Source: Ornithinimicrobium pratense
GTDB lineage: Bacteria > Actinomycetota > Actinomycetes > Actinomycetales > Dermatophilaceae
Direction: 5' to 3'
Assembly: GCF_008843165.1 (NCBI RefSeq)
Contig: NZ_CP044427.1
Location: 2,480,001 to 2,544,000, forward strand
DNA length: 64,000 bases
Positions within the stretch are counted from its first letter, which is position 1. Each line of letters begins with the position of its first letter. The position numbers and the translations under genes were made by a program. Positions 18,152 through 35,491 of the stretch are shown here, one piece after another. Under the pieces are notes generated by a model. That model made no database searches. It had not been told where the DNA came from and worked only from the letters and a program-made list of their open reading frames with translations.

Positions 18152-19666
18152 GTGGGCTCGTTCGTGCGCAAGGTGAAGACCGCCTCGGGCGCGACAGCAG
18201 TACAGATCATGCACAAGCGCGGTCGGCGGGTCCTGGGGATCGATCACATCGGCTCGGCCCGGACGGAGGCCGAGCTCGCACTGCTGGAAGCGATCGCGCA
18301 CGAGCGGTTGCACGCCGGCCAGGAACAGCTTCCCCTCGAGCCCGGCGGGCCCAGCACTCCGGCTGCGGCCACGGGGATGCAGGCCACGGTCGCCGGCACA
18401 TCCTCGCTGGTGCTCTGGCAGGCCCTGGAGCGGGTCTACACCGACCTGGGCTTCGATGCTCTGGGTGATGAGGCGTTCAAGCAGCTCGTGCTGGCGCGGA
18501 TCATGGAGCCGACGTCTAAGGCTGACACCGTGCGGGTGCTGGAAGACATCGGTGTCCCCTCCCGGACCAGGGAGACGTTCATGCGCTGCCTGTCCCGCGT
18601 GGTCGAGCGCAACTACCGGGAGCAGATCGGTGCCGCTTGCTATGCCCACGCCGCCCCGACCGGGCGCCTGGCCGCGGTGCTGTACGACCTGACGACACTG
18701 CACTTCGAGACGCCGAAAGAGGACCGGCTGCGCAAGGTCGGGATGAGCAAGGAGCGGCGGGTCGATCCTCAGGTGACGGTCGGGCTGCTGTGCGATCCCG
18801 GAGGGTTCCCACTGGCGGTGCACCTGTTCGAGGGCAACAAGGCAGAGACCAAGACCCTCATCCCCGTGCTCACCGAGTTTCAGGACGCGCACGACGTGCA
18901 GGACATGATCGTGGTCGCCGACGCCGGGATGCTGTCCGCGGCCAACCTGCTGGCCCTGGAGGAGGCCGGGTTCAGCTTCATCGTCGGCTCCCGCGCGGCC
19001 AAGACCCCCTATGACCTGGCCGACCACTTCGCCACGAAGGGCAACCACTTCACCGACGGACAGAGCGTGGAGACGACCCGGGCGATGGGCGCCGGGAAGG
19101 ACCGGCGCACCCGGCGGGTGGTGTACCAGTACTCCTTCAAGCGGGCCAAGAACGATGACCGGGCGATCAACGCGATGATCAAGAAGGCCGAGGACGTCGC
19201 CGCCGGTCGACGCCCCCTCAAGCGTGACCGGTTCGTGCGGATCGACGGGGCGACCAAGGGCGTGGACTGGGACCTGGTCGAACGGGCCCGGTCGATGACC
19301 GGGCTAAAGGGCTACGTCACCAACATCGCCGCTGAGCAGATGGACGGGCCAGCGGTCGTGGCCGCCTACCAGGACCTCTACCAGGTCGAACGGTCTTTCA
19401 GGATGGTCAAGTCCGACCTGCGCGCCCGCCCGATCTTCCACCAGCTGCGTGACTCCATCGAGGCGCACCTGACCATCGTCTTCGCCGCCCTGGCGATCTC
19501 CCGCGAGGCCCAGCAACGCACCGGCGCCTCGATCAAGAAGATCCTGAACACCCTTCGTCCGCTGCGCACAGCCACCATCACCGTCGGCGGCCACCAGATC
19601 ATCGCCGATCCCGAGATCTCCGACGAGGCCCGCGAACTGCTGAACTACATCAACCCCGGGGTGTGA
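18152..19666 (+). CDS. IS1634 family transposase (DDE)
   Basis: 504 residues from GTG 18152. N-terminus SFVRKVKTASGATAVQI is typical for actinobacterial IS1634/IS4-type transposases. The DDE residues are recognisable: YDLTTLHFE (first D), VVADAGMLSAANL (second D) and the YREK-like signature YQVERSFRMVKSDL (E). The C-terminus shows the ISREAQQRTGASIKKIL segment. The frame is intact, so the element could still be active. It catalyses cut-and-paste transposition via the 18-bp ends. Confidence 0.9.
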   Translation: MGSFVRKVKTASGATAVQIMHKRGRRVLGIDHIGSARTEAELALLEAIAHERLHAGQEQLPLEPGGPSTPAAATGMQATVAGTSSLVLWQALERVYTDLGFDALGDEAFKQLVLARIMEPTSKADTVRVLEDIGVPSRTRETFMRCLSRVVERNYREQIGAACYAHAAPTGRLAAVLYDLTTLHFETPKEDRLRKVGMSKERRVDPQVTVGLLCDPGGFPLAVHLFEGNKAETKTLIPVLTEFQDAHDVQDMIVVADAGMLSAANLLALEEAGFSFIVGSRAAKTPYDLADHFATKGNHFTDGQSVETTRAMGAGKDRRTRRVVYQYSFKRAKNDDRAINAMIKKAEDVAAGRRPLKRDRFVRIDGATKGVDWDLVERARSMTGLKGYVTNIAAEQMDGPAVVAAYQDLYQVERSFRMVKSDLRARPIFHQLRDSIEAHLTIVFAALAISREAQQRTGASIKKILNTLRPLRTATITVGGHQIIADPEISDEARELLNYINPGV

Positions 19667-20031: not shown

Positions 20032-20760
20032 CTAAGAATCGGTCAGCTTGGGAATGTCGGCCGGGGTCACGACAGCCACGGGTCGCTGGTGGGACTTGCC
20101 CGTCTCGGTGACGATGAGGGCTGCCAGCGGGCTTCCACGCTCAGCTGCCTCGACGAACGTGCGCACGGCTCGGGTGCTGGTCACACTCTTGGGGACATGC
20201 CGGACAGGCTCGTTCTCCTGGAAGCTCAGCGCTGTTGCGATCGATGCGTCTTCGAGGAGGCCGTCGTGCTGGCGCATCTGATCGGCTACCCACCGGGCGA
20301 CGGTGTTGGTGGTCAGTAGACCTTTATAGGTGTCGTCGTCATACACCGGCAACTGCGAGAAGTCGTTCTCGTACATCAGGTCCAACGCTGCACGCACTGA
20401 GAGACCTGGCTCAACGACCAACGGCCTCTGGCTTCGGAGCACTGTGATGGCGGTGGGCGGGTCGAGGAGGCGGTCTCGGATGTGGCGCATCGCGGCGATG
20501 GCGGTGTCGGTGGGGACCGCTAGGCGTTGGTCGTCAAACTGTCGCTCATGGGTCAAACTGTTGCGCACCTGAGCGAGTACTCGGAGGTCGTCGTACTGCT
20601 TCTGGGTTATGTCCCGTGACCGCTTAGTCTTAAACGTCTCGAGAAGTTTCGCGAAACTGACGCTGCCGACGTCTTTGCCACCGTAAACCATAAATTTTAG
20701 GTGTGCCTCCACGTCGTTGAACGCAGACATGAACAAGTCGTAGGGTCCTGGGGTCGTCAC
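20032..20760 (-). CDS. HEPN-CBS domain protein coupled to the type I RM operon
   Basis: 242 residues. Residues 1-100 are all-helical with the HEPN ribonuclease signature R-N-x3-H as R66-N67-S68-L69-T70-H71 (AQVRNSLTHE), preceded by the usual acidic helix (FNDVEAHLKF) and SFAKLLETFK. Residues about 104-237 hold two CBS motifs (LVVEPGLSVRAALDLMYEND / LPVYDDDTYKGLLT, and the second around AVRTFVEAAERGSPLAALIV...RPVAVVTPADI). CBS pairs bind adenine nucleotides such as AMP, ATP or SAM. The start overlaps the hsdR stop by 4 bases, so it is translated with the restriction subunit. Proposed role: a nucleotide- or SAM-gated RNase acting when restriction fails. The fold and motif are seen; activity and ligand are inferred. 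Confidence 0.75.
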   Translation of the reverse strand: MTTPGPYDLFMSAFNDVEAHLKFMVYGGKDVGSVSFAKLLETFKTKRSRDITQKQYDDLRVLAQVRNSLTHERQFDDQRLAVPTDTAIAAMRHIRDRLLDPPTAITVLRSQRPLVVEPGLSVRAALDLMYENDFSQLPVYDDDTYKGLLTTNTVARWVADQMRQHDGLLEDASIATALSFQENEPVRHVPKSVTSTRAVRTFVEAAERGSPLAALIVTETGKSHQRPVAVVTPADIPKLTDS

Positions 20761-23700
20761 TGTGCACCCTCCCTCACCATGTGGTGGACGAGTTCTCCGG
20801 TCATCTCGACCAGGATCTTCTCTGGTCGCCCGCCTTGGTGGATGATGTCGCTCATCTTGGCGTGGGCCTGCTGGTTGTCCAGCACCGCGAGCAGGACCTT
20901 TGTGCGCAGGGTGGGGCTGGCCAGGAACTGTCCCTTAGTGTTGTGCTCTGCCTGCTCCCGGACCTGCTCGTCCTCCAGCAGGGTACGGATCAACCCTTCA
21001 AGCCAGGTCTCCTGCTGCTCGACGGTGAAGTCCTCATCCCCGAACAGATCGTTGAGGCGGGCAACCACCTCGGCCAGTGGTCCCTTCTTCATCTCCTGCA
21101 CGCTGCCTGACCCTGCGGCGGCGGTGGGCCTGACAGGCTTGGTCTCGTCGATGGCCAGGTCGGTGGTGCCCTGGTGCTTCTGCTTGATCGCGACCAGGTC
21201 GACCCCGGACAGGTCGGTGGCCGGTGTGTGATTGCTGACGTGGATCAGCGGCTCGAGCAGCCTGAAGAAGATGGACCGTCGGAACGGTTCGGTGTCGCCG
21301 AACTCCACGATCTGGGAGAGGAAGTCGTACAGGTTGATGAACGAGCGGACGTCCTTGCGGAACATGTCCAGCTCGTCCAGCCGGGTCCGGTCATCTCCCT
21401 GCATCGCCGAGGCGTAGTCCGACCTGAACCGGTGCACGACTGGCCCCAGTCCGCCGCTGAGGGCGTTATTTCCCTTCTGGTGCACCCACGCGTCGACCAC
21501 CGTGTTGACCTCGTCGGCGGTGTAGATGCCGGTGGTGTCGAGCTTGTTCTGGAGGTCGTGGATGAGGTCGGGGTCGGTGACCGCCTCCAGGCGGGCTCCG
21601 GCGTAGTAGGGCTTGTACGCGTCCAGGATGTCCTTCTCGGTGTTGACGAAGTCCAGGACGTAGGTGTCAGTCTTGCCCGGAAAGGTCCGGTTCAGCCGGG
21701 ACAGGGTCTGCACCGCCGTTACCCCGGACAGCTGCCGGTCCACGTACATCGCGCACAGCAACGGCTGGTCGAACCCGGTCTGGTACTTGTTCGCCACGAT
21801 CATCACCTGGTAGCCGTCTCCAGCGAACGCCGCGGTCAGGTTGCCCTTCACGGTGGGGTTCATGTTGGCCTCGGTGAACTTCTCCGGTCCGGTCTCGGGG
21901 TCGTTGACCTCTCCGGAGAAAGCGACCAAGGTGGCCAGACCCTCGTACCCCATCTTGGTGATGTAGGAGTCCATGGCGACCTTGTACCTGACAGCGGCCT
22001 TGCGGGAGTCGGTGACGACCATGGCCTTGGCCTTGCCCTGGAGTAGGTGGGCGATGTTGGCCCGGTAGTGCTCGACGATGATCTGCACCTTCTGGGCGAT
22101 GTTGGTCGGGTGCAGCTTGACCCACCGGATCAGGCCCTTGGTCGCGGCGTGCTGGTCGACCAGCACCTCCTCGACCTGCGGGTCCTGCCCGACCAGCTCC
22201 TGCCCGCTCTTCTCGACCTTGACCGCCAGCTCGAACGCGGTGTCGTAGTTGGTGAAGTTGCGCAGCACGTCGAGGATGAACCCCTCCTCGATGGCCTGCT
22301 GCATCGGGTACAGGTGGAACGAGACCGGGATTGGCTCCCCCGTCTTCTCGTCCCGATCCTCCCCAGGACGGCCGAACAGTTGCAGCGTCTTGCCCTTGGG
22401 GGTCGCGGTGAACGCCAAGAAACTGATGTGCTCCGGACGGGCGCGGCCCTCCATCTCCGCCGCCAACAAAGTCTCGGTGTCGACCTCGGCCCCGTCGTCC
22501 AGGGCAGCCAACTCGGCCGGGGACAGCACCTTCTTCAACTTAGTCGCAGCCGAACCGGTCTGCGATGAGTGTGCCTCGTCGGCGATCACCGCGAACCGAC
22601 GACCCGCGAGCGAGACATCACCCTCCAAGAGTTCGAGTACCCAGGGGAACGTCTGCAGCGTGACGACGATGATCTTGCGGCCTCCGAGGAGACCCTGCCG
22701 GACCAACTCAGAGTTGGATGTCACACCGTGAGCCGACTTGCTGCTGGCGTCGACGGCTAGCACGGTGCCGGTCGTGCGCTCAATCTCCTTGACTGCGTCT
22801 TGCAATTGACTGTTCAGCACTGTCCGGTCCGACACGACGATCACCGAGTCGAAGATCTTCTCGTCGCTCTCGTCATGCAGCGACAGCAGCCGGTGCGCGG
22901 TCCAAGCGATCGTGCGCGTCTTGCCAGACCCTGCCGAATGCTCGATCAGGTACGACTGCCCCGCCCCAAGCGCCTTGGCATCAGCGAGGACCTTCGTGAC
23001 GGCCTCCCACTGGTGGTACCGCGGGAAGATCAACGCCGAAGACCTACGGGGGCGGCCCTGGGCATCCAGTTGGGTGGAGGTCTCGACGTGCGCGAACCTC
23101 AAGATGATGTCCAGCCAGGCGTCCTTGTCCCACACCTGCTCCCACAGGTAGGACGTGTCCGACCCGAGCGGGTTGACCGGGTTGCCCGCCCGCCCCTGGT
23201 CGCCCTTGTTGAACGGCAGGAACCTGGTGTCCTTCCCTGCCAGCTTGGTGGTCATCCACACCTCGGCGTTAGACACCGCGAAGTGCACGATGGCACGGGA
23301 GCCCCACCCGAACAACGGGGACGACTTCGGGTCCCGGGACCGGTATTGGGCCATCGCGTCCTGCACGCTCTGGGTGAAGTCCGTCTTCAGCTCCACCGTG
23401 GCCACCGGAACCCCGTTGACGAAGAGCACCAGGTCAACAGTCTCGTTACCTCGGGACGACAAGTGGACCTGCCGCATCACCCGCACCCGCGTCATGCCGT
23501 ACAGCTCTGCAGCCCGAGGGTTCAACGACGTCGCGGGCCGCGGGTAGGACATGTCCAGCCGCTTGGAGGTGCCGACCTTGAACCCACCACGCAGGAGGTT
23601 CAACGTCCCGCCATCGTTGGTCAAAGGAGTGTCGAGAACCTTGGCCACCCGGTCCAGGATCTTCTCCTGCGCCCCCGTCTGCTCCCTGTCCGACATCGAT

Positions 23701-23882
23701 GGCTTCACGATCGACTCGTACGTCTCCGGCTGTGTCTGCTCCAGCCACGCCAGCAGGTCCTCCGGGAAGAGAGCCCTGGCCCGGTCGTACCCGGCATCGC
23801 TGGAGGAGTACAGCCAGCCGTGGGCTGATAGGTACTGGCACAGTTCGGTTTCGAACACGATCTCGTTGTGCTGGGCCATCAT
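20757..23882 (-). CDS. hsdR: type I restriction enzyme, R (translocase/endonuclease) subunit
   Basis: 1041 residues, overlapping the hsdM-S stop by 4 bases and the HEPN-CBS start by 4. Domain order: N-terminal nuclease with VDLVLFVNGVPVATVELKTD (the D and the ExK around residue 165). SF2 motor follows with Walker A EHSAGSGKTRT (about 313-323), FAVIADEAHSSQTG (DEAH box, about 434), FLAFTATPKGKTLQLFG (motif III) and the C-terminal RecA lobe with ANKYQTGFDQPLL and VQTLSRLNRTFPGK (motif VI). A helical C-terminal region for binding the methylase closes it. It translocates DNA and cuts unmodified DNA away from the recognition site. Start: two consecutive ATG codons; 23882 is chosen for the coupling overlap. 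Length is normal for HsdR. Confidence 0.95.
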   Translation of the reverse strand: MMAQHNEIVFETELCQYLSAHGWLYSSSDAGYDRARALFPEDLLAWLEQTQPETYESIVKPSMSDREQTGAQEKILDRVAKVLDTPLTNDGGTLNLLRGGFKVGTSKRLDMSYPRPATSLNPRAAELYGMTRVRVMRQVHLSSRGNETVDLVLFVNGVPVATVELKTDFTQSVQDAMAQYRSRDPKSSPLFGWGSRAIVHFAVSNAEVWMTTKLAGKDTRFLPFNKGDQGRAGNPVNPLGSDTSYLWEQVWDKDAWLDIILRFAHVETSTQLDAQGRPRRSSALIFPRYHQWEAVTKVLADAKALGAGQSYLIEHSAGSGKTRTIAWTAHRLLSLHDESDEKIFDSVIVVSDRTVLNSQLQDAVKEIERTTGTVLAVDASSKSAHGVTSNSELVRQGLLGGRKIIVVTLQTFPWVLELLEGDVSLAGRRFAVIADEAHSSQTGSAATKLKKVLSPAELAALDDGAEVDTETLLAAEMEGRARPEHISFLAFTATPKGKTLQLFGRPGEDRDEKTGEPIPVSFHLYPMQQAIEEGFILDVLRNFTNYDTAFELAVKVEKSGQELVGQDPQVEEVLVDQHAATKGLIRWVKLHPTNIAQKVQIIVEHYRANIAHLLQGKAKAMVVTDSRKAAVRYKVAMDSYITKMGYEGLATLVAFSGEVNDPETGPEKFTEANMNPTVKGNLTAAFAGDGYQVMIVANKYQTGFDQPLLCAMYVDRQLSGVTAVQTLSRLNRTFPGKTDTYVLDFVNTEKDILDAYKPYYAGARLEAVTDPDLIHDLQNKLDTTGIYTADEVNTVVDAWVHQKGNNALSGGLGPVVHRFRSDYASAMQGDDRTRLDELDMFRKDVRSFINLYDFLSQIVEFGDTEPFRRSIFFRLLEPLIHVSNHTPATDLSGVDLVAIKQKHQGTTDLAIDETKPVRPTAAAGSGSVQEMKKGPLAEVVARLNDLFGDEDFTVEQQETWLEGLIRTLLEDEQVREQAEHNTKGQFLASPTLRTKVLLAVLDNQQAHAKMSDIIHQGGRPEKILVEMTGELVHHMVREGAQ

Positions 23883-26443
23883 GGAGAGACCTCTCCTGTG
23901 CCGTGATTCACCAATTCGGCTGAGAGCGCACGGACCTGCTCCGACACGAGTGCCGCGTAGCGAGCTGCCAGGCGGGACAATTCATCCAACGCATCTAGTT
24001 GCCTCACAATCTCGGCTTGCTCTTCGGGCGGGGGGAGCGGCACGAGAATGCGTGCCATTTCGGAGTATCTAGTAGTCCACAGGTCAGCGACGATACCGTG
24101 GCCCCACCGATAAAACTCTTCCTGGAACGGAATCGATCGGATCAAGTGATGCGCATACCGCGGATGGATCCCAACAGGGCGCAAAACCGTGTAGATAATC
24201 GACACACTTCCGTCCCTGATCGCGAGACCGGAACTACCACGTCTGTCAGATCGACTGTTAATGACGATGTCGCCAGCCCGAACAATACGCCGAGCATCCC
24301 TGTCGGCAGTTTTCGCCACGTGACTCAACTGGGGGATGACGCCGTCAAGAGTCACCGATAGTGCTGGAAAGTCGTCTTCACTGCCAACCTCACGCCTCTC
24401 TTTGAGAATGCTACCGAGCCGGACACGACGCCAATTGGGGGCCAGTGGGGCATCGAATGAGGCCGCAAACGTTTCCCTGAGTTTCGAGCCTGGAATCTCC
24501 TCGAGCGTCCTCTGATGTGACTGGATTTGCGCCATAACGTCCGCTGCTTCATCACTGACGACACCCGCGCCTCGGAGTCGCCGGCCACTGTAGAACAGGC
24601 GCGTGAACGGAATTTCGTAGCCGACCTTGGTCTTGCTGTGATCGACCCAGGCGTCCGGGGCATGCGGCTGAACTTCGGTTCGGAAGTACTTCTCGATGTC
24701 GCGCTCAAAAGGAACAATCTCGGTGCTCCGCGAGGCAGGGTCGGGTTCCCAATTGCCTCCCCTGTCCGTACAGATCACCGCCTCATCGTCGTGCACGCCA
24801 ATGCTCTGCCACAACACCTTTACCATCGGTGTCGGAAGTGCGTACCCTGCGGCTTTGCTCGCCATGCGCAGTGCGGACAGGAACTCCTGACGGTCCATCC
24901 ACACCCGACCCCGCAGGGTCTCTAATCCGGCACTGAGCTTGGCACGGTTCTCTTCAGAAAGTTTCTGGATCTGCTTCACCGACGTCATCTTGGAGAGGGT
25001 CTCGTCGGTGATCTCAAACCGCCGACGCAGCGGCTGCTCAACGGTGATCTCGCGGTAGCCAAAATCTTCTGGAGCGAGGACCTTCGAGTAGGGCGCGTCC
25101 TCCTCTGCCTGCTCGTCGAAAGCTGCGTAGATCCGCAGAAGTCGCTCCCGGCTCCTGTCTTCGATCTCCTTGCCTTTTGAGCCGAGGCTTCGCCGAAGCC
25201 TAGTGAAGAATTCGCGACCGTCGATGAGTTGGACCTTGCCTCGACGCTCTTCCGACTTCGCGTTGTCCAAGACCCACATGAAGGTGGAGATCCCGGTGTT
25301 GTAGAACATGTCGGTTGGCAGGGCGACGATCACGTCGACCAGGTCCGACTCCAGCAGCCAGCGGCGGATGTTCGACGGTCCGGACTCGGCCCCTCCGGTG
25401 AACAGCGGGGACCCGTTAAGGACGATCCCGGCCCGGCCACCACCCTCGGAGGCCGGGCGTAGCTTAGAGGAAACTACCTGCAGGAACAGCATCTGCCCGT
25501 CGCTGATCGCGGGCAGCCCCCCGGGGAAACGACCACCCCCGGCCATGTTCTCGGCCTCAGACAGGACGGCGGACTGGGATGCTTTCCAGTCGCCCCCGTA
25601 GGGCGGGTTGGACAGCACGTAGTCGAAGGTGCGTTCCAGGTGGTGGTCGTTGGCCAGGGTGTCGCCCAGCGCGATGTTGTTGGCGTCTTGGCCCTTGCCG
25701 ATGAGTTCGGACTTGCAGATCGCGTACGACTGCGCGTTCAGCTCCTGCCCGTACATGACCACCTGGGCCTTGGGGTTCATCTCCGTCAGCCGTTCATCCA
25801 GCACCGACAACATGCCCCCGGTGCCCGCGGTCGGGTCGTATACGGTCCGCACGGCCGAACCGGTCAGCACATCACCATCGGGTTCCACGAGCAGGTCCAC
25901 CAGCAGACGGACCGCGTCCCGAGGGGTGAAGTGCTCTCCCGCGGTCTCGTTCGACGCCGCAGCGAAGCGGCGGATGAGATCCTCGAACATCGTGCCCATC
26001 TGCGCGTTCGTCAGCGCCTCAGGCCCGAGGTCGATCTTGGCGAAGCGGTCCAGCACCAGGTAGAGCCGGTCGTTCGTGTCCAGGGTGTCGATCTCCTGGT
26101 CGAACTTGTAGTTGCCGAACAGGTCGGCCACATTGCCCGAGAACGCGTCCAGGTAGGCCCGCAGGTTGTTCCGCAGGTTCTCCGGCTCCTCCAGAATCTT
26201 GGCCAGCGTGTACGGGGAGGTGTTGTAGAACGACAGACCCGTCCGGTCACGCACCAACAGCTCCAGCGTCTCCCCCTGCGCCATCCCAGCCAGCTTCTGG
26301 ATTGTGTCCCGGTGCGGGGCCAGCACACACTCCATCCGGCGCAGGATCGTCATCGGCAGCACGACGTTGCCGTACTGGTTCGGCTTGTACACCCCCCTCA
26401 GCTGATCGGCAATGCTCCACACGAAATTGGCCAGTTGGCTCAT
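23879..26443 (-). CDS. type I RM fused modification-specificity subunit (HsdM-HsdS, one TRD)
   Basis: 854 residues, first gene of the operon. The HsdM part spans about 1-650: HsdM_N helices (SQLANFVWSIADQLRGVYKP), the SAM motif I VYDPTAGTGGML (about 200) and the catalytic NPPY in FDYVLSNPPYGGDW (about 280), that of N6-adenine methyltransferases. From about 665 an HsdS-type target recognition domain follows (APNWRRVRLGSILKER), ending in the conserved region PPPEEQAEIVRQLDAL and a helical dimer arm. Typical HsdM is about 500-680 residues and separate HsdS has two TRDs (about 400 residues); here a single half-S is fused. Expected result: a dimer reading two identical half-sites, hence a palindromic bipartite target. 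Confidence 0.9.
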   Translation of the reverse strand: MSQLANFVWSIADQLRGVYKPNQYGNVVLPMTILRRMECVLAPHRDTIQKLAGMAQGETLELLVRDRTGLSFYNTSPYTLAKILEEPENLRNNLRAYLDAFSGNVADLFGNYKFDQEIDTLDTNDRLYLVLDRFAKIDLGPEALTNAQMGTMFEDLIRRFAAASNETAGEHFTPRDAVRLLVDLLVEPDGDVLTGSAVRTVYDPTAGTGGMLSVLDERLTEMNPKAQVVMYGQELNAQSYAICKSELIGKGQDANNIALGDTLANDHHLERTFDYVLSNPPYGGDWKASQSAVLSEAENMAGGGRFPGGLPAISDGQMLFLQVVSSKLRPASEGGGRAGIVLNGSPLFTGGAESGPSNIRRWLLESDLVDVIVALPTDMFYNTGISTFMWVLDNAKSEERRGKVQLIDGREFFTRLRRSLGSKGKEIEDRSRERLLRIYAAFDEQAEEDAPYSKVLAPEDFGYREITVEQPLRRRFEITDETLSKMTSVKQIQKLSEENRAKLSAGLETLRGRVWMDRQEFLSALRMASKAAGYALPTPMVKVLWQSIGVHDDEAVICTDRGGNWEPDPASRSTEIVPFERDIEKYFRTEVQPHAPDAWVDHSKTKVGYEIPFTRLFYSGRRLRGAGVVSDEAADVMAQIQSHQRTLEEIPGSKLRETFAASFDAPLAPNWRRVRLGSILKERREVGSEDDFPALSVTLDGVIPQLSHVAKTADRDARRIVRAGDIVINSRSDRRGSSGLAIRDGSVSIIYTVLRPVGIHPRYAHHLIRSIPFQEEFYRWGHGIVADLWTTRYSEMARILVPLPPPEEQAEIVRQLDALDELSRLAARYAALVSEQVRALSAELVNHGTGEVSP

Positions 26444-26731: not shown

Positions 26732-27430
26732 CTAGCCAAGCTGGCTCACGAAGTCGCCCATACGACGATTCCGCGCGCGAATGAAGTCGTCGCTCGCTGC
26801 CCGGTAGGAGAGGTACTCCGCGGTGTCCTGAGGTATCGATGAACGCTGGAACTCGTCGAACTCCATGAAGAACTTCACCTTATCTGGTCCTCGGAGGAGG
26901 TCGTGCAGCAGGAAGAACTCCACGTAGCCGCCGAAGTCGACAAACAGGTCGAAGAAGTAGCCGTAGCGGCCCAGGACTACGGCCAGCGGGCTCTCCTCAC
27001 CTTCGTAGTGTCGACGGATGCACTCAAGGGTTAGGTCGAAACGGTCCGCGATCTGAGGATGGAAACCTCGCGCACCGTTGATCGTCATCTGGCGACCGAT
27101 CCTCTCGCCCGGGAAGATGATCGAACTGCCGATCGTGTAGCCCAGATCCGGAGGGATCTCGGCTGGGGGGATCTGGTCGATGATGCGGGCCGCTTTGCCG
27201 TAGAGGTTGGTCGTGATGGCGTCGCTGGCGGGGTAGATCGTCCGCCCCTCGGTCTCGTATGTGAGGTAGGCGCCTGGCCGCTCCTGGAGGTCGAAAACCG
27301 GTCCTGAGGGCAGCGGCTTGGTCCACAGGTGTCGGTGGTAGCGCTTCAGGGTGGGGCTAACGGCGTCCGCGTCCTTGCCGGGGGGCGTCTCCGTGAGGAA
27401 GTCGAACGTCGTGTCAATGGCGAGACCCAT
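26732..27430 (-). CDS. DUF6994-like protein
   Basis: 232 residues. The N-terminus IDTTFDFLTETPPGKDADA followed by SPTLKRYHRHLWTKPLPSG matches my memory of the DUF6994 family of actinobacteria and proteobacteria; function unknown. An aromatic segment lies near 170 (YGYFFDLFVDFGGYVEFFLL). No catalytic motif, signal or membrane helix is evident. It is divergent to the HhH-GPD gene and stands 288 bases upstream of the RM operon start. The intervening 26444-26731 shows no gene. Family naming is moderately sure, role unknown. Confidence 0.65.
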   Translation of the reverse strand: MGLAIDTTFDFLTETPPGKDADAVSPTLKRYHRHLWTKPLPSGPVFDLQERPGAYLTYETEGRTIYPASDAITTNLYGKAARIIDQIPPAEIPPDLGYTIGSSIIFPGERIGRQMTINGARGFHPQIADRFDLTLECIRRHYEGEESPLAVVLGRYGYFFDLFVDFGGYVEFFLLHDLLRGPDKVKFFMEFDEFQRSSIPQDTAEYLSYRAASDDFIRARNRRMGDFVSQLG

Positions 27431-27638: not shown

Positions 27639-28259
27639 ATGGACGAGGTCGACAAGGTTGTCGCAGCGGTAGAGCACATCCCAAAGCCCTGGAACAAGTT
27701 TCCCGGCGGCTATCCGGACCAGATCGAGGCGGCGCTGATCGACGCAGTCTTCTCGATCCGATCGAAATACGGAAGCGAGACCACGGGAGTCCGGGCGGTC
27801 GTTCGACGCTACTGCGACGCGATCGGGGATCCCAAGCCCGACCAATTGGACCGTCTCGCGTCCATGGACACCGGCAGGCTGACTCGCGTCCTGCAGAACG
27901 CGCAGGCGGTGAGCGGCAGATCGAAGGCAGAGGCCGTGCAGGAGGCTGCGCGCAACCTCGTCGAGGCCGGGGTGCATCGCGCAGCGGACCTGGACCCCGC
28001 ACGCCACCGACCTGCGTACACACGCGTCCACGGACTGGGCAAGGTGACCTGGGCGTACTTCTGCATGCTGCTGGGTCATCAGGGCGTCAAGGCCGACACC
28101 TGGGTGATGCGGTGGGTGGCTCAGGCTCTCGGCGAGGATTCGATCAACTCTGCCCGGGCCAACGCCCTGGTTCAGGGCGCCGCTCAGAAGCTCAAGGTAG
28201 ATGCCACACAGCTTGACCACGCCATCTGGGCGCATGCCCGAGCCGGAGGCACCGCGTAG
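27639..28259 (+). CDS. HhH-GPD-fold DNA glycosylase-like protein
   Basis: 206 residues. The helix-hairpin-helix with catalytic Asp of the endonuclease III superfamily is visible as RVHGLGKVTWAYFCMLLG followed by VKADTWVMRWV (D in KAD). The N-terminal half supplies the first helical lobe (ALIDAVFSIRSKYG). Classical EndoIII places a Lys two residues after G-x-G; here the hairpin reads GLGKVT, so bifunctional lyase activity is uncertain. No FeS cysteines at the end. It may remove modified bases or simply bind damaged or modified DNA. Located between the type I RM operon and the nuclease trio, in a defence context. Confidence 0.65.
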   Translation: MDEVDKVVAAVEHIPKPWNKFPGGYPDQIEAALIDAVFSIRSKYGSETTGVRAVVRRYCDAIGDPKPDQLDRLASMDTGRLTRVLQNAQAVSGRSKAEAVQEAARNLVEAGVHRAADLDPARHRPAYTRVHGLGKVTWAYFCMLLGHQGVKADTWVMRWVAQALGEDSINSARANALVQGAAQKLKVDATQLDHAIWAHARAGGTA

Positions 28260-28331: not shown

Positions 28332-29522
28332 ATGGCATCGGTGCTGGCGTGGGTCGACTACTCGTCGGCCCACCGTGACCAGATGGACCGACTGCTGGAC
28401 GCCTTTCGCGACAAAGGGACTGTCGACGAGCTGGGCATCGGCACCCTCCGCGACACCTTCAGCGACCATCTCTTCCCGGGCACCTCCACCCTGCACACAC
28501 GCGCCCGCTACCTGCTCTTCGTCCCCTGGGCCGTGACCAGCACCACCCCCCATCGCTGGCCGGCCGATCGAGCCGAGCGGGAGCTACGTCGCCTCGAGGG
28601 CAAGCTCATCGAGGCGTTGCGCAGCGGGGACCTGGATGGTGGGGTCATTGGTCGGGACGCCGGCGCCACCGTGCAACGCCTGCCGAGCACCGTCTACTGG
28701 AGCGCCCTCGGCGCCTACGACATCCGACGCTGCGGGCACAGCATCGCCCAGCACCTGCGCTTCTCGACCGAGCGTCCGCCGCCCTCGGTCGACGAGGACG
28801 AGGACATCCTCCACGTCCGGCACCGGGACCCGTGCTTCCGCCAGCTCCCCGTGCCCCCGGACGACTGGCTCCAGACCGCCAACTTCACCCTCAGCCGCGC
28901 CGAGGCGGAGTTCCTCCGGGACCGGATCCTCGACACCTGCTCGGAGCGCTACCTCGGCTGGCTGGTGCAACGTGACCTCCCAGGAAATCCGGAAAGGCCC
29001 TGGGATCCTGCCCTGACCGCAGACCTGCCGGCGGAGATCTCCGGTGTGCTCGCTCACGCCCGGCGGTTCAGCCGGCTGCATGAGGGCGCGCCGATCCTCT
29101 ACAACCTGCTCCTCGCCCGGCTCAAAGACTGGGAAGAGGGTGTCGAGCGCTATACCGCCCAGCTCGAGGCCTGGGCCGACGACGACGAGACCCACCAGGC
29201 CGTCGCGACCTGGGATGAGGACGACTTCTGGAGCTGCGTCGCCCGCGCCGGTTGGCGCCACAACGTCCGCACCCAGTCCTTCGTCCGCTCCTGGGTCGAC
29301 CTCGTCCACCACGGTGCAGACCTCGTTCACGGCCAGGCAGCCGAGCAACTGATCCGCGAGCGCGAGACCAACCTCAAGGGCCGCCGCTCGCGCTTCGTCA
29401 ACCCGGACGCCCTCGAGGCCTGGGAGGGTGGCAACGGCATGGGCCGGATGACGTTCCGCTGGTCGGAAGCCAGACAACTGGTCACCGACATCCGGCAGGG
29501 ACTGGAGGCCAGCAATGCTTGA
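28332..29522 (+). CDS. DUF6361 family protein, first gene of nuclease-helicase trio
   Basis: 396 residues from ATG 28332, preceded by GGGAGG at 8 bases; an in-frame GTG/ATG further upstream lacks a site. The N-terminus matches DUF6361: VLAWVDYSSAHRDQM, DKGTVDELGIGTLRD, LFPGTSTLHTRARYLLFVPW. It is mostly helical with a C-terminal basic stretch (RETNLKGRRSRFVNPD). Function is unknown. Genes of this family are seen beside PLD and helicase genes, as here. The stop overlaps the next start by 8 bases, so expression is coupled. It may provide target recognition or a scaffold, but this is inference. Confidence 0.8.
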   Translation: MASVLAWVDYSSAHRDQMDRLLDAFRDKGTVDELGIGTLRDTFSDHLFPGTSTLHTRARYLLFVPWAVTSTTPHRWPADRAERELRRLEGKLIEALRSGDLDGGVIGRDAGATVQRLPSTVYWSALGAYDIRRCGHSIAQHLRFSTERPPPSVDEDEDILHVRHRDPCFRQLPVPPDDWLQTANFTLSRAEAEFLRDRILDTCSERYLGWLVQRDLPGNPERPWDPALTADLPAEISGVLAHARRFSRLHEGAPILYNLLLARLKDWEEGVERYTAQLEAWADDDETHQAVATWDEDDFWSCVARAGWRHNVRTQSFVRSWVDLVHHGADLVHGQAAEQLIRERETNLKGRRSRFVNPDALEAWEGGNGMGRMTFRWSEARQLVTDIRQGLEASNA

Positions 29523-31374
29523 GCCGAGCACCCGCACCCTCTTCGTCGACGCCTTCCGTCCGCCGACGGGGCACGTCGTCGATCTGGCTGTCGGCACCAC
29601 CTACACGTTGAGCCTGCGCATGTTGCTCCTGCCGCCCTTGGCCATGGCCGCCCACGACCGAGAGTCCGAGCTCAGCGATTCCGGGGACGGCACCGACCCC
29701 ACGGAGGAGACCGAGCACTCCCCCGCCGACACGCTCGCCCTGCTCGAGGCCGTCCGGCGGTATGCCGACCGGACGACGGTCTACTGCCACGCCTCCGGCA
29801 TCGCCTCCCCCGGCCGCTACCCGCGGCTGCTGGCCTTCTCCGAGGACTCGGTGGTGCAAGTGCTCCCTCGCACTCCGGGGCACATCTTCCACCCCAAGAT
29901 GTGGGCTCTGCGCTTCCGCCAGGACGACGACCTGATCCACCGGCTCGTGGTCTGCAGCCGCAACCTGACCGAGGACTCTTCCTGGGACACGCTGCTGGTC
30001 CTCGACGAGGGCGAGCCTGACCAGGGCATCTCCGGCGCACCGGCCGCCGAGTTCGTTCGAGCGCTGCCCAGCCTGACCGTGGGGCCGGTCGCCCCCGGCC
30101 GACCCGAGCAGGCGGAGACGCTCGCCGCGACCCTCGAGGATGTCTGGTTCGACCTGCCCGCGCCGTTCACCGGTGGCGAGCTCCTCCCGCTCGGCCTGCG
30201 CGCCGGCACCGCCTCGTGGCCCATGCCGGAGCACCCGACGCGCGCCGTGGTGGTCTCTCCCTTCCTGGACATCGACACCGTGTCTCGAGTCAAGGCCCGC
30301 CGCACCCCCGTGCTCGTCTCCCGCCCTGAGTCCTACGACCTGGTCGGCGCCGAGGCCGTCGCCCACACCAGCACCAAGGTGCTCAGCCCGCACGCCGAGA
30401 CGCAGGTAGCCGACCCGCGGACGGACTCCCCCACCCGTGCCGGCGAGGTGCGTGACGGCCTGCACGCCAAGCTCTTGGTGTGGGACGAAGGCCGCACCGG
30501 TCACCTGCTCACCGGTTCGGCGAACGCCACGCACGCGGCCTTCCACGGCAACGTGGAGTTCGGCGTGCTGCTCACCGGCCCTCGTCGATCCTGCGGGGTT
30601 GAGGCGCTGTTGCCCGACGAGGCGCCTTCTCGTGACCGGGTCACCTTCGACCAGGTGTTGCAGGACCACAATGTGGTCGAGCCCGAGCCGCAGGAGGACA
30701 CTACCCGGCAGACGGAGCGCCAGATCGAACTCCACCACGAGGGCCTTCTGCAGGCCGGCCCCCGACTCTCCTGTGAGCAGGACGAGAGCGGGTATGCGGT
30801 CACCCTGCAGTTCGAGGACACGCTCCCCAGGGATCCGGGCACCACGAGTGTCCGGCTGGTCAGCCGGCCCCGCACCGAGCTGCGTCCACCCGACCGGGCC
30901 CGGTGGGAAGGGGTCCCGCTGCTGCAGCTCACCCCATACCTTGAGGTCGTCACCACGGTGCCCATCTCCGACACCGAGAGGATGGAGGTGGCAAGCGTGC
31001 TCAAGGCTGAGCTGGTGGACGCCCCCGAGGAGCGGGCAGCCGAGGTGCTCCGCAGCTATCTGGGCTCCGAGGAGAGCCTGGTGCGCTACCTTCGCTTCCT
31101 TCTCGACGAGGCTGACGCCGGGTCGGTCTGGGACGACCTGGAGCTAGGTGATGCCCAGGGCGATGGTGCCGGGGCTCGGAGGCCGACCTTCGAGGACCTG
31201 GCCATCCTGGAGCCCCTGCTGCGGGCAGCGGCCGACGGCAGCGAGGCGTTGGACCGCGTCCAGGCGCTGCTGCGGGACCTCGGTGTGAGACCGGACCAGC
31301 CCGGGGTGGTGCCGCAGGAGTTCCTGCAGCTGTGGCAGGCGGTCTGGGATGCGACGCGGGAGGGGCGACCGTGA
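29515..31374 (+). CDS. phospholipase D-like nuclease domain protein
   Basis: 619 residues. Two PLD half-sites: the first (near 123) is HIFHPKMWALRF with VVCSRNLTED, an H-x-K without the usual Asp spacing; the second (near 317) is a complete H-x-K-x4-D in LHAKLLVWDEG followed by GSANATHAAFHGN. So one half-site is canonical and one degenerate. In defence systems such PLD domains are usually metal-independent endonucleases. The C-terminal third (from about 400) is unassigned, acidic and perhaps a binding region for the helicase. It overlaps DUF6361 by 8 bases and the helicase start by 4 (GTGA). Confidence 0.8.
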   Translation: MLEPSTRTLFVDAFRPPTGHVVDLAVGTTYTLSLRMLLLPPLAMAAHDRESELSDSGDGTDPTEETEHSPADTLALLEAVRRYADRTTVYCHASGIASPGRYPRLLAFSEDSVVQVLPRTPGHIFHPKMWALRFRQDDDLIHRLVVCSRNLTEDSSWDTLLVLDEGEPDQGISGAPAAEFVRALPSLTVGPVAPGRPEQAETLAATLEDVWFDLPAPFTGGELLPLGLRAGTASWPMPEHPTRAVVVSPFLDIDTVSRVKARRTPVLVSRPESYDLVGAEAVAHTSTKVLSPHAETQVADPRTDSPTRAGEVRDGLHAKLLVWDEGRTGHLLTGSANATHAAFHGNVEFGVLLTGPRRSCGVEALLPDEAPSRDRVTFDQVLQDHNVVEPEPQEDTTRQTERQIELHHEGLLQAGPRLSCEQDESGYAVTLQFEDTLPRDPGTTSVRLVSRPRTELRPPDRARWEGVPLLQLTPYLEVVTTVPISDTERMEVASVLKAELVDAPEERAAEVLRSYLGSEESLVRYLRFLLDEADAGSVWDDLELGDAQGDGAGARRPTFEDLAILEPLLRAAADGSEALDRVQALLRDLGVRPDQPGVVPQEFLQLWQAVWDATREGRP

Positions 31375-34300
31375 CGGACGACCGGCCTGACCTGGAGGCC
31401 GCGCTGAGCGGACTCAAGGACTTCCAGCGCCGCACCGTGGACGCCGCCTTTGAGCGGCTGTGGGGCGATGATGACCCGTCGAGCCGATTCCTGGTAGCGG
31501 ACGAGGTCGGGCTGGGCAAGACCCTGGTGGCCAGAGGGGTGCTCGCCAAGACCGTGGACCACCTGTGGGACCACGCCGATCGCATCGACATCGTCTACAT
31601 CTGCTCCAACAGCCAGATCGCCCAGCAGAACCTGCGCCGCTTGCACGCCGGACTGCACGGCGAGATCCCGCACGCCGACCGGCTCACCATGCTCCCAACA
31701 GTCCTTGACGACCTGGACCGGCAGCGGGTCAACGTCATCTCTTTCACCCCCGGGACCTCCTTCCACCTCGGCAACAGCGGGGGCCAGGCACCCGAGCGGG
31801 CCCTGCTCTTCGTCATGCTGGAACGGGCTTGGGGCGCCGGGGCCCTCCGCGGGCGGAAGTGGTCCCGGTTCTTCCAGGGAGCTGCGAGCGAGGAGCGGAT
31901 GCGGCGGGAGATCGACCGCGCACGTGGCACCTCCATCAGCCCGCAGCTCATGCACGCCTTCAGCGAGGCGCTGCTGCTGCCGAGCGCGGACGGACCACGG
32001 CTGTGCGACGCCCTCGGTGAGGGTGCGGACGACTTCCGATGGCTGCGGGAGGGTGGGAGGGTTTCCTGGCAGGTCTCGGCTCACCGCTACCGGCTGATCG
32101 GCCAGCTCCGCCAGGCGCTGGCAAGGATCTGTGTCTCTCACCTGCAGCCCGACCTGGTGATCCTGGACGAGTTCCAGCGCTTCAGCCAGCTGCTCAGCGG
32201 TGACGATGACGCCTCACGCCTGGTCCAGTCCCTGCTGGGCCCGATACAGGTGGAACGCCCCGGTGAGCAGCGCACCGCTCGCACGCTCCTGCTGTCGGCC
32301 ACGCCCTTCAAGATGTACACCCTGCCCGACGAGCCCGAGGGCGATGACCACTACCGGGACTTCCTACACACCGTGCGGGTCCTGGCCGGCCCCGAACGGG
32401 CTCAGATCGTGCAGGACAGGATGAGCGAGATGCGCGCCGCCCTGCTTCGCGGTGATGTGCCGGCTGCCACTGACGCCAAGGACGTGGCCCAGGTCGAGCT
32501 GCGCCGAGTCATGGCACGCACCGAGCGGCTGGCCGCCACGAAGGACCGGGACGGCATGCTTACCTCGCGTCAGGACCGGCTCACCGTTACCCGGACCGAT
32601 GTGTCGGACTACCTTGCTCAGGCCGCAGTCGCCCGGGCCCTGGACTCCCCGGAGGGCCTGGAGTACTGGCGCAGCTCTCCCCACGTCCTGGAGATGATGG
32701 AGCGCTATCACGTCAAGCGCCGGATCGACGAGGAGCTGACCGCCGGCAGCGGACTGCTGCGCGGGATCCTGCGGACGCGCTTCACCCCCGATGACCTCCA
32801 CACCTACGGCGAGATTGACCCCGGCAACCCGCGTGCTCGATGGCTCGCCGACGACGTCTTGTCCACCGGTGCCTGGCGCGCGGCGTGGCTAGCGCCGTCT
32901 CTGCCGTACTACACCCCTCGCGGCATCTATGCCGAGCCGGCCTTCCAGCGCTTCACCAAGCGCCTCGTCTTCTCCGCCTGGGGAGTAGCCCCGAAGGGGA
33001 TCGCGACCACCCTCAGCTACGAGGTGGAGCGCCGGCTGGCAGGACAGTCCCCGACCATGCGCGAGCGGGGATACTTCGCCACCCGCCGCCGTGGCCTGCT
33101 TACGCGCACTGTGACAGACGGCCGGTTGACGGGTATGCCGGTCCTCGCCCTGCTCTACCCCTGCGTCGAGCTCGCGAGAGCCGGGGACCCGTTGCGGGTC
33201 GCCCGCGACCTGGGGCGGTCCCTGCCCCTGGACCGCGAGGATCTTGTCGCTGAGGTGCGTAAGCGGGTCGAGCGGTCGCTGGAGCAGTTGCCGTCGGGTG
33301 GCAGCGAAGGTGTGGCGGACCAGCGGTGGTTCTGGGCAGCACCCTTGCTCCTTGACCGGTTGCACGGGCTGACCACTGTCGAAGGCCTCACCTTCGGGGG
33401 CAAGCGCCTCGGTGACCAGGGCGCGGACGGTTTTGGACAGCACCTCGATGAGGCGCTGCACGTCGACGCTGCGCAGCTCGGGCCCCGACCTGCAGAGCTG
33501 GCTGACGTGCTCACCGAACTGGCGCTGAGCGGGCCCGCGGTCTGCGCCCTGCGCACTCTCGCCAGGGTTGTCGCGGACCCGGGCGACCTTGGCGCCCGGG
33601 ACGTGCGGGCCACCGCGTCAGAGTGGGCCTGGTCCCTGCGATCCCTGTTCAACGGCGCCGAGATCATGGCGGTCGTAGAGGGCCAGGGTGATGACCCCTA
33701 CTGGCGGCGTGTGTTGCAGCACGGGATGGACGGCAACCTGCAGTCGGTGCTGGATGAGTACGGCCAGGTCCTGCACGCTGCGCACTCCCTCGCCGGGCAT
33801 GACAGGCCCGAGCAGTTGCGGCAGCTCGGAGAGAAGTTCGCCGAGGGGAGCGGTCTGCTCGCCTCCCCGCAGGCCATGGACTTCTTCGCCGACGGTGTGA
33901 GCCCGCCTAAGCGCAGGCGAATCCGCACCCACTTCGCAGCCCGCTATGGCCGCGCCGCAGCCGTGGACGACAAGACCGTCCAGCGTGAGACCCAGGTCCG
34001 GGAGGCGTTCAATTCACCTTTCTGGCCCTTCGTTCTTGCCTCTACCTCCGTCGGCCAGGAGGGTCTCGACTTCCACCACTACTCGCACGCCGTGGTGCAC
34101 TGGAACCTGCCTTCCAACCCCGTCGACCTGGAACAGCGTGAAGGTCGGGTCCATCGCTATCGCGGACACGCGGTCCGCAAGAACGTCGCCCAGGCTCACA
34201 GCGGCAACACCTCGTTGGTCGGCGGCCCGAGTCCTTGGCCGGTGCTCTTTGACCTGGCTGCCGACGAGCGTGGCGACCGCTCGGAGATCTTCCCGGACTG

Positions 34301-34496
34301 GGTGTACCCCCTTGCGGGCGGCGCCACCATCGAGCGGCACGTGCCCGTACTACCCATGAGCCGAGGCACCCAGCACTACCAGCGGCTGCTACGGACCGTC
34401 GGGGCCTACCGGCTCACGTTGGGCCAGCCCCGCCAGGAGGAGCTGATTGCCTACGTCGGCGACAACCACGACCTTGCCCTCGACCTCACGCCGTGA
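31371..34496 (+). CDS. SF2 helicase/translocase of the DUF6361-PLD cassette
   Basis: 1041 residues from GTG 31371, which overlaps the PLD stop. Motor motifs: Q-like entry LKDFQRRTVDAAFERL (15-30), Walker A VADEVGLGKTLVARG (42-56) of the SNF2/RapA style, VILDEFQRF (about 263-271; DEFQ box), LLLSATPFKMYT (about 307-318). The C-lobe has STSVGQEGLDFHHYS and LEQREGRVHRYRG (motif VI, about 920-930). A long insert of about 550 residues separates the lobes. DEFQ and GRxHR combine features of RapA/SNF2-like enzymes. Expected to move along DNA or RNA and deliver the PLD nuclease. No DUF1998 (DrmB) partner or methylase is nearby, which argues against DISARM. Confidence 0.85.
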   Translation: MTDDRPDLEAALSGLKDFQRRTVDAAFERLWGDDDPSSRFLVADEVGLGKTLVARGVLAKTVDHLWDHADRIDIVYICSNSQIAQQNLRRLHAGLHGEIPHADRLTMLPTVLDDLDRQRVNVISFTPGTSFHLGNSGGQAPERALLFVMLERAWGAGALRGRKWSRFFQGAASEERMRREIDRARGTSISPQLMHAFSEALLLPSADGPRLCDALGEGADDFRWLREGGRVSWQVSAHRYRLIGQLRQALARICVSHLQPDLVILDEFQRFSQLLSGDDDASRLVQSLLGPIQVERPGEQRTARTLLLSATPFKMYTLPDEPEGDDHYRDFLHTVRVLAGPERAQIVQDRMSEMRAALLRGDVPAATDAKDVAQVELRRVMARTERLAATKDRDGMLTSRQDRLTVTRTDVSDYLAQAAVARALDSPEGLEYWRSSPHVLEMMERYHVKRRIDEELTAGSGLLRGILRTRFTPDDLHTYGEIDPGNPRARWLADDVLSTGAWRAAWLAPSLPYYTPRGIYAEPAFQRFTKRLVFSAWGVAPKGIATTLSYEVERRLAGQSPTMRERGYFATRRRGLLTRTVTDGRLTGMPVLALLYPCVELARAGDPLRVARDLGRSLPLDREDLVAEVRKRVERSLEQLPSGGSEGVADQRWFWAAPLLLDRLHGLTTVEGLTFGGKRLGDQGADGFGQHLDEALHVDAAQLGPRPAELADVLTELALSGPAVCALRTLARVVADPGDLGARDVRATASEWAWSLRSLFNGAEIMAVVEGQGDDPYWRRVLQHGMDGNLQSVLDEYGQVLHAAHSLAGHDRPEQLRQLGEKFAEGSGLLASPQAMDFFADGVSPPKRRRIRTHFAARYGRAAAVDDKTVQRETQVREAFNSPFWPFVLASTSVGQEGLDFHHYSHAVVHWNLPSNPVDLEQREGRVHRYRGHAVRKNVAQAHSGNTSLVGGPSPWPVLFDLAADERGDRSEIFPDWVYPLAGGATIERHVPVLPMSRGTQHYQRLLRTVGAYRLTLGQPRQEELIAYVGDNHDLALDLTP

Positions 34497-34630: not shown

Positions 34631-35491
34631 TCACCCGAGCCAGGGCTGGACCCGCTCCAGGTAGCGGTCCGACATCGTGGCCACGACCTCGGCCCCGGGC
34701 GTGGCCCAGACGTCGGCGTTGAAGATCTCCACCTCGACGTCGCCGGCATACCCGGTCCTCGCGACCCACCCGGTGAACGCCTCGAAGTCGATGTGCCCGT
34801 CCCCGACCATGCCGCGGCTGAGCAGCGCGTCCGGCGGCAGGGGGGTGATCCAGTCGCTGATCTGGTAGCTGGCGATCCGGTCGCCGGCGCGGGCGATCTG
34901 CTGCTCCACGCCCGGCTCCCACCACAGGTGGAAGGTGTCCACGACCACGCCGACGGCCGAGGCGGGGAACTGCTCGGCCATGTCCAGCGCCTGCTCCAGG
35001 GTGGAGACCACGCCCCGGTCCGCGGCGAAGATCGGGTGCATCGGTTCGATCGCGAGCACCACCCCCGCCGCCTGCGCCTCCGGCACCAACGCGGCGACCC
35101 CGTCCAGGAACCTGCGGCGCGCCGCATCGATGTCCCGCTCACCCTCGGGTAGCCCACCGGGGACCAGCACCAGCGCCGGCGCCCCCAGGGTGGCGGTCTC
35201 CTCGATCGCCGCCCGGTTGGAGTCCAGCGACGCCCGTCGCAGCGATCCCTCGGGCATGGTCAGGAACCCGCCCCGGCACACCGAGGACACCCGCAGCCCC
35301 GACTCCTCGACCCACCGGCGGGCCGTCTCCAGGCCCACGTGGGCGACCGGCTCCCGCCAGACGCCGAGGCTGCTGAGCCCGGCGCTGAGGCAGCCGTCGA
35401 TAGCCTCGCGCAGCGTCCACTCCGCGCAGGTGCGCTGGTTCAGCGAGAGCCGCGCCAGCCGTGGGTCGACGCCTGCCGATGCGCTGCTCAC
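34631..35491 (-). CDS. sugar phosphate isomerase/epimerase (TIM barrel)
   Basis: 286 residues, AP-endonuclease-2/xylose-isomerase-like TIM barrel. Metal-ligand segments are recognisable: VLAIEPMHP (Glu), VVVDTFHLWW (Asp and His), YQISDW and the late VEVEIFN (Glu). Last gene of a long operon; it overlaps the preceding gene by 4 bases (ATGA). Members of this family epimerise or isomerise sugars and inosose-type intermediates. With a Gfo/Idh/MocA dehydrogenase and a DUF993 aldolase-like protein upstream it probably acts in the same catabolic path; the substrate is unknown. Confidence 0.85.
   Translation of the reverse strand: MSSASAGVDPRLARLSLNQRTCAEWTLREAIDGCLSAGLSSLGVWREPVAHVGLETARRWVEESGLRVSSVCRGGFLTMPEGSLRRASLDSNRAAIEETATLGAPALVLVPGGLPEGERDIDAARRRFLDGVAALVPEAQAAGVVLAIEPMHPIFAADRGVVSTLEQALDMAEQFPASAVGVVVDTFHLWWEPGVEQQIARAGDRIASYQISDWITPLPPDALLSRGMVGDGHIDFEAFTGWVARTGYAGDVEVEIFNADVWATPGAEVVATMSDRYLERVQPWLG

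Follow-up and report, generated by a model that had tools for sequence, protein, structure and literature searches.

A stretch of 64,000 nucleotides from Ornithinimicrobium pratense (contig NZ_CP044427.1, positions 2,480,001 to 2,544,000; this whole stretch is called the window below and its own position numbers are used) carries three overlapping genes which, judged by their sequences, almost certainly encode a complete Azaca (ZacA-ZacB-ZacC) anti-phage system. In a scan with the defence models of PADLOC-DB 2.0.0 all three proteins matched the ZacA, ZacB and ZacC models over nearly their full length:

28332..29522, + strand: zacA, DUF6361 protein of 396 amino acids (aa); PADLOC ZacA (PDLC03828), E-value (E) 3e-126, residues 1-392 of 396; Pfam PF19888, E 4e-59
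29515..31374, + strand: zacB, double-motif PLD-type nuclease of 619 aa; PADLOC ZacB (PDLC03829), E 1e-154, residues 1-616
31371..34496, + strand: zacC, SF2 helicase-type ATPase of 1041 aa with GTG start; PADLOC ZacC (PDLC03830), E 0, 1086 bits, residues 7-1041

The open frames lie exactly where the initial annotation of this DNA had placed them, and the overlaps of 8 bases between zacA and zacB (29515-29522) and of 4 bases between zacB and zacC (31371-31374) are exact. For zacC a mechanical list of open reading frames (ORFs) starts at the GTG at 31332 (1054 aa), and the GTG at 31371 gives the 1041 aa that are also the length of the identical database protein P0241. As the identity of homologs reaches 85% (ZacA and ZacB) or 75% (ZacC) at the top and falls to about 37% in archaea, the three are real genes and not chance frames. 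The family assignments of the first and third gene also held, DUF6361 through PF19888 and the SF2 helicase through the Pfam matches Helicase_C and DEAD together with motifs kept in the homolog alignments. Since the NCBI names of related proteins say no more than "DUF6361 family protein", DUF6361 can be read as ZacA.

Azaca reportedly protects against phages, as Millman et al. are said to have found in 2022. The connection of the Zac genes to this system is given by an excerpt of PMC12278908, where "Azaca (ZacC)" is listed. In the part of PMC10952713 that deals with it, Azaca has a PLD-like domain, credited to Millman et al. 2022, with activity N/A, and the same domain is listed for Mokosh; excerpts of PMC10482375, which finds Azaca enriched in Actinobacteria, and of the 2026 review PMC12926258 both list the mechanism as unknown, and a passage of PMC10855318, citing one reference, groups Azaca with systems of validated or predicted nuclease activity. 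Only its distribution is reported in the relevant passages of PMC13379101, PMC13321033, PMC12629846, PMC10121019 and PMC11680222, and literature searches by name (ZacA/ZacB/ZacC, DUF6361, PADLOC with Zac) brought up nothing relevant among the matches listed. The trio had been proposed as a new candidate system, a proposal meant to fall if the three were already named in current defence databases; as the full-length Zac matches show that they are, the claim to novelty is refuted. What stays of it is a defence operon of three genes that is complete in itself, encodes a PLD-type nuclease and an SF2 helicase, and differs from both DISARM and Dpd. The window locus is thus a real and intact defence system that already has a name, and an ordinary find, with no essential difference from Azaca in the extent of the three proteins, their order or their overlaps.

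Co-occurrence of the three genes and comparison with DISARM and Dpd

To follow the trio through other genomes, the best 80 of at least 568 confirmed relatives of ZacA were kept, with their contigs, as the locus set. Genes A, B and C stand in this order on one strand in 72 of the 80 loci, from bacteria as well as archaea, some of them with split or cut-off frames (e.g. L046, L067, L079, L081, L104 and L117), and the remaining eight, seven without C and one without B, have only 0-215 bases of contig left. ZacABC hosts belong to Actinomycetota, Pseudomonadota, Thermodesulfobacteriota, Cyanobacteriota, Chloroflexota, Bacillota, Planctomycetota and Verrucomicrobiota, and the archaeal ones include Methanothrix. 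Among 197 genomes of the class ZacA was found in six, ZacB in four and a full-length ZacC in four, with short helicase matches to ZacC in 25 further genomes; all four ZacB-bearing genomes have A, B and C contiguous. Of 72,556 plasmid records 37 have a match to ZacB, which in 33 covers 80% or more of the protein, and of 50,697 phage records one has a match, an unverified, unannotated contig. Within the genus carriage is patchy, with ZacB in 5 of 31 genomes, and the trio is carried on a patchily distributed cassette.

A PLD protein next to an SF2 helicase is also known from DISARM, and ZacB, which has a DrmC-like PLD motif, matches DrmC models while ZacC matches DrmD/DpdE models, as would be expected if the trio were a DISARM or Dpd system that had been reduced or had diverged. 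However, the best of these stretches are short (about 40-75 residues), those from NCBIfam lie far under their cut-offs, and the Zac models match near full length, which rules out the trio as a member of either system; we give this alternative next to no probability. DISARM membership would rest on DrmA, DrmB/DUF1998 and a methylase in one operon, and the trio shows a DrmA match of 57 residues only, and no DrmB or methylase. For Dpd, the trio gave only partial matches to DpdE-type helicases. As had been noted before, neither DrmB/DUF1998 nor the Dpd core nor a methylase was matched inside the trio in Pfam, NCBIfam and PADLOC scans, and among the PADLOC matches listed for 11 other window proteins none is named Dpd. 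A further difference is that DrmC is called non-essential in the DISARM text excerpted, whereas ZacB follows ZacA in 79 of the 80 Azaca loci, the remaining contig ending at ZacA.

Conserved sites and proposed working of ZacABC

The catalytic features of ZacB and ZacC were located as follows:

29890..29988, + strand: ZacB first PLD-type half-site, H126-P-K128 ... S148-R-N150 ... D154, D158 (homolog alignments)
30463..30558, + strand: ZacB second PLD-type half-site, H317-A-K319 ... G334-S-A-N337 ... E348 (homolog alignments and match to PDB 7clg)
31500..31523, + strand: ZacC Walker A, DEVGLGKT (44-51), invariant in a 25-row alignment
32166..32177, + strand: ZacC motif II, DEFQ (266-269), in 115 of 115 close and 62-63 of 63 diverse homologs
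32295..32303, + strand: ZacC motif III, SAT (309-311), in 115 of 115 close and 63 of 63 diverse homologs
34134..34157, + strand: ZacC motif VI, QREGRVHR (922-929), RapA/Snf2-like, invariant in the 25-row alignment

For ZacB the PLD motif claimed at first is weak in Pfam (PF13091, E 3e-4, with 21 bits where the cut-off is 27), and it was the homolog alignments that secured it: H126, K128, N150 and D158 of the first half-site and H317, K319, N337 and E348 of the second are each present in all 119 close homologs and in all 72 of a diverse set from which 7 short rows were excluded. In ZacC the residues checked belong to Walker A, DEFQ, SAT and motifs V-VI; of 115 close homologs 114-115 retain them, and of 63 diverse ones (excluding 9 short rows) 62-63. 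An alignment of 79 diverse ZacA homologs, which excludes 1 short row, has 45 columns conserved to at least 97%. When the ZacB profile was compared with solved structures, its second half-site matched 45 residues of PDB 7clg (E 4e-4), a record titled "Putative helicase" which we take to be SauUSI.

Together with ZacA the genes thus encode a PLD-type protein with two motifs and an SF2 motor that is complete, and the cassette has no methylase. From these sequences we infer that ZacABC probably works as an ATP-dependent, restriction-like nuclease complex. In this model ZacA, alone or with part of ZacC, would recognise foreign DNA or couple the two enzymes, ZacC as a Snf2/RapA-like SF2 ATPase would translocate on DNA, and ZacB would cut it, where both PLD-type half-sites in one chain could form a full active site. 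The trigger would be some state of the phage DNA or a modification on it and not an unmethylated site, and as the cassette has no methyltransferase, self would probably be spared by this type of trigger. The division of labour put forward at first, with DUF6361 sensing, the helicase moving and the PLD protein cutting, is consistent with this and is backed by catalytic motifs for the latter two; for ZacA either role, recogniser or coupler, is a guess.

Several observations weigh against this model. RNA and lipids can also be substrates of PLD-family enzymes. The ZacC profile touches RapA chains around motifs V-VI alone (residues 887-934), a match of just about 48 residues, and the ZacA profile found nothing among solved structures up to E 1. 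Furthermore, a partial ZacA match occurs without ZacB in 2 of the 197 genomes of the class (G166 and G095).

Nuclease and SF2 ATPase pairs that may work alike are SauUSI and CglI/NgoAVII. SauUSI is of the PLD type and belongs to the type IV class, and the endonuclease of CglI/NgoAVII is PLD-type as well. In the excerpted descriptions SauUSI combines a nuclease with a helicase-like ATPase translocating on DNA, but it does so in one chain with its own target-recognition domain, whereas Azaca has three chains and no recognisable target domain; with separate genes and only the PLD motif matching (45 residues of 7clg), the trio does not form a SauUSI-type single-chain enzyme. CglI/NgoAVII, according to similar excerpts, has a separate endonuclease and a helicase-type ATPase acting together, but with a methyltransferase and a sequence-specific site where Azaca has ZacA. 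For Mokosh, which shares the listed PLD-like domain, no match was found among the 1, 18 and 24 PADLOC families listed for the three proteins.

For the logic of surveillance DISARM and Hachiman are possible precedents. In a Hachiman-like abortive mode ZacC would scan all DNA and hold ZacB inactive until damaged or replicating phage DNA frees it, upon which host and phage DNA would be destroyed and the cell would die. Hachiman is described in literature excerpts as a helicase-nuclease pair working by such abortive surveillance, and Azaca likewise has a helicase, a nuclease and a cassette without methylase, next to which repair-type genes occur in some genomes (AddBA-like genes, a UDG-like gene in locus L096, Ku and ligase genes on one plasmid). 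However, ZacA has no counterpart in the two-gene Hachiman, and HamA is assigned to a different family (DUF1837) in the same excerpts, so we regard this mode as rather unlikely and retain the restriction-like complex as our working model.

AddB-AddA-like genes beside ZacABC in other genomes

The 705 ORFs that flank ZacABC in the 80 loci include an AddA-like protein in 16 loci. AddA and AddB were then scored with custom models in 101 loci, namely the 80 loci, four further genomes of the genus or class (among them L123, whose ZacC is identical to that of L043), 16 plasmid loci and the phage contig, with plasmid locus L143 left out for its weak ZacA. AddBA-like genes adjoin ZacABC in 20 of the 101 loci, 18 in front and 2 behind, where the loci are no random draw, the plasmids having been added once the pattern had been noticed and covering 17 of the 37 plasmid records (the other 20 are mostly Cronobacter). 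The AddA-like gene stands directly before ZacA in L089, L094, L095, L097, L098, L099, L101, L104, L113, L134, L136-L139, L141, L142, L148 and L149, and it is preceded by an AddB-like gene in 17 of these 18, L097 being cut by the contig end and L104 having its AddB in two pieces. An automatic rule had given 17 front loci, as it counted L100 (weak, 56 bits; discarded) and missed L141 and L149 through overlapping open frames, their annotated genes being 14 and 116 bases apart. The two placements are seen in the following loci:

L089:4107-16135, L098:96-12103 and L134:669-9845, likewise L136, L137, L139, L141, L142, L148 and L149: AddB-AddA-like pair directly before ZacABC, a five-gene cassette
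L064:16272-19013 (Nitrosomonas) and L078:14759-17881 (an Anaerolineae bacterium): AddB-like gene directly behind ZacC, then an AddA-like match

Hosts of the front five-gene cassette are Alphaproteobacteria, on chromosomes and plasmids, and Lyngbya. In two loci one gene lies between AddBA-like genes and ZacABC, ADP-ribosylglycohydrolase-like in L066 (below cut-off) and UDG-like in L096. The order AddB-AddA-ZacA-ZacB-ZacC is present in 8 of 16 annotated plasmid loci (one with a zacC missing from the gene table and found by the custom model, one with zacB annotated as two pieces) and not in the other 8, and a 17th, unannotated plasmid locus has it by the custom models.

Four AddA-like proteins from chromosomal cassettes or near-cassettes were scanned and reached at best 136-316 bits against housekeeping AddA cut-offs of 708 or 861, so they are divergent AddA relatives. 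By custom patterns, motif II DEFQ is present in all 7 AddA-like proteins, the N-terminal Walker A in 4 and the PDDEXK pattern in none of these 7, and in 4 of 6 AddB-like proteins; Pfam PDDEXK_1 gave 20.6 bits against the AddA-like protein of L113, under its cut-off of 22.

In a permutation test on the 80 chromosomal loci 3 of 10 groups were adjacent to an AddA-like gene against 1.07 expected (p 0.075), hence the adjacency in these loci alone is only suggestive. Besides this p-value and the non-random choice of loci, it speaks against a link that AddA-like genes and ZacB show no association in the genus of the window. On a ZacC tree of the quick kind with long branches flagged (78 rows, 19 labelled; 7 removed because the flank was short or ZacA absent) a minimum of 6 changes accounts for the AddBA label, against a mean of 17.2 and a lowest value of 13 after shuffling. 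This shows that the label was inherited within clades and was also gained or lost several times, without a count of the gains. From front and behind placement AddBA and ZacABC may have been joined more than once; clustering by placement, with labelled rows compared with each other only, was not strong (2 changes for front placement, against a mean of 2.9 after shuffling, with 45 of 500 shuffles no higher). A literature search for Azaca with words beginning AddA returned nothing relevant.

The AddBA-like, UDG-like and Ku/ligase genes beside some ZacABC copies might also mean that the trio is a DNA-repair operon rather than a defence system. Against this stand the patchy carriage in the genus, the occurrence on plasmids, RM (restriction-modification) and AbiE genes as neighbours, and the publication of Azaca as a defence system in the excerpted parts of PMC10952713 and PMC12926258, and we consider repair very unlikely. 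AddBA-like genes beside ZacABC would fit a product with DNA ends. Tentatively, Azaca might be the first, cutting stage of a two-stage DNA destruction, after which a RecBCD/AddAB-like helicase-nuclease shreds the DNA from its ends, with a dedicated AddB-AddA-like second stage in some lineages. In the lineage of the window the host's own end-processing enzymes would then serve as this second stage.

Surroundings of the window locus

To the right of the cassette, homology to three Azaca-less relatives begins at 34635-34644, just past the ZacC stop at 34496, and a left edge was not found in the comparison with Azaca-less relatives. In one of them, left of the isomerase, the farther half of the flank matches the genome of the window at a distance of about 0.5 Mb, while the nearer half matches it elsewhere and in short stretches only, so that the cassette or its vicinity has probably undergone a rearrangement. 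Other genes around the trio are:

8484-11912: AddA/RecB-like UvrD-PDDEXK gene
18152-19666: DDE transposase gene
20032-20760, - strand: CBS-domain gene with a 4-base overlap with the end of hsdR; NF053863 (CBS-domain anti-phage protein) weak, 26 bits against a cut-off of 260
20757..23882, - strand: HsdR of a type I RM system; Pfam HSDR_N and SWI2_SNF2 exceed their cut-offs, TIGR00348 (E 5e-50) does not reach its own
23879..26443, - strand: HsdM with S-like C-terminal part, type I RM; PADLOC MTase_I E 1e-245, Specificity_I E 9e-27
26732..27430, - strand: DUF6994 gene (PF22507, E 1e-82), a possible lineage-specific neighbour
27639..28259, + strand: 206-aa protein of no known family, 72 bases before zacA, a possible lineage-specific accessory gene

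The HsdR and HsdM genes are the type I RM operon that had been described as adjoining the trio. In L145, a Haliscomenobacter plasmid, a type I RM operon has ZacABC between its hsdM/hsdS genes and its hsdR. The AddA/RecB-like gene was considered as a part of Azaca and rejected, as it occurs in 7 of the 31 genus genomes and ZacB in 5, with both together only in the genome of the window.

Around four other copies in the genus, homology to the DNA of the window is limited to ZacABC, plus DUF6994 in two Serinicoccus genomes, where it lies directly before zacA; a DUF6994 protein match was found in L040. In two Serinicoccus loci the second gene after ZacC encodes a homolog of the 206-aa protein, with 52-53% identity. 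Further homologs occur on actinobacterial plasmids, and three plasmid regions around them have no annotated Azaca genes. We do not claim the 206-aa protein as a DNA glycosylase: a HhH-like motif was recognised by eye alone and single-sequence matches were insignificant (E 0.11-0.82), its profile (A4) hit a single PDB entry, with E 1.5 and of a different kind, and one homolog had an NCBIfam glycosylase match (E 0.03).

One protein cluster occurs near ZacABC in 9 of the 80 loci (L060, L063, L066, L070, L075, L086, L088, L091 and L110), and its two scanned members are ADP-ribosylglycohydrolase-like, that of L088 by Pfam and that of L066 by NCBIfam below cut-off. DUF6361 is also seen outside Azaca, as a partial match near PDC-S44-, MzaA-, DrmA- and DrmB-like genes in L120:6567-17757.

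In summary, the window holds one more actinobacterial copy of Azaca and is worth annotating so. With a double PLD-type site that is invariant, a motor that is intact, a cassette without methylase and AddBA-like neighbours that recur, the mechanism of Azaca becomes directly testable, and these neighbours in other genomes hint at a DNA-degrading partner of Azaca.

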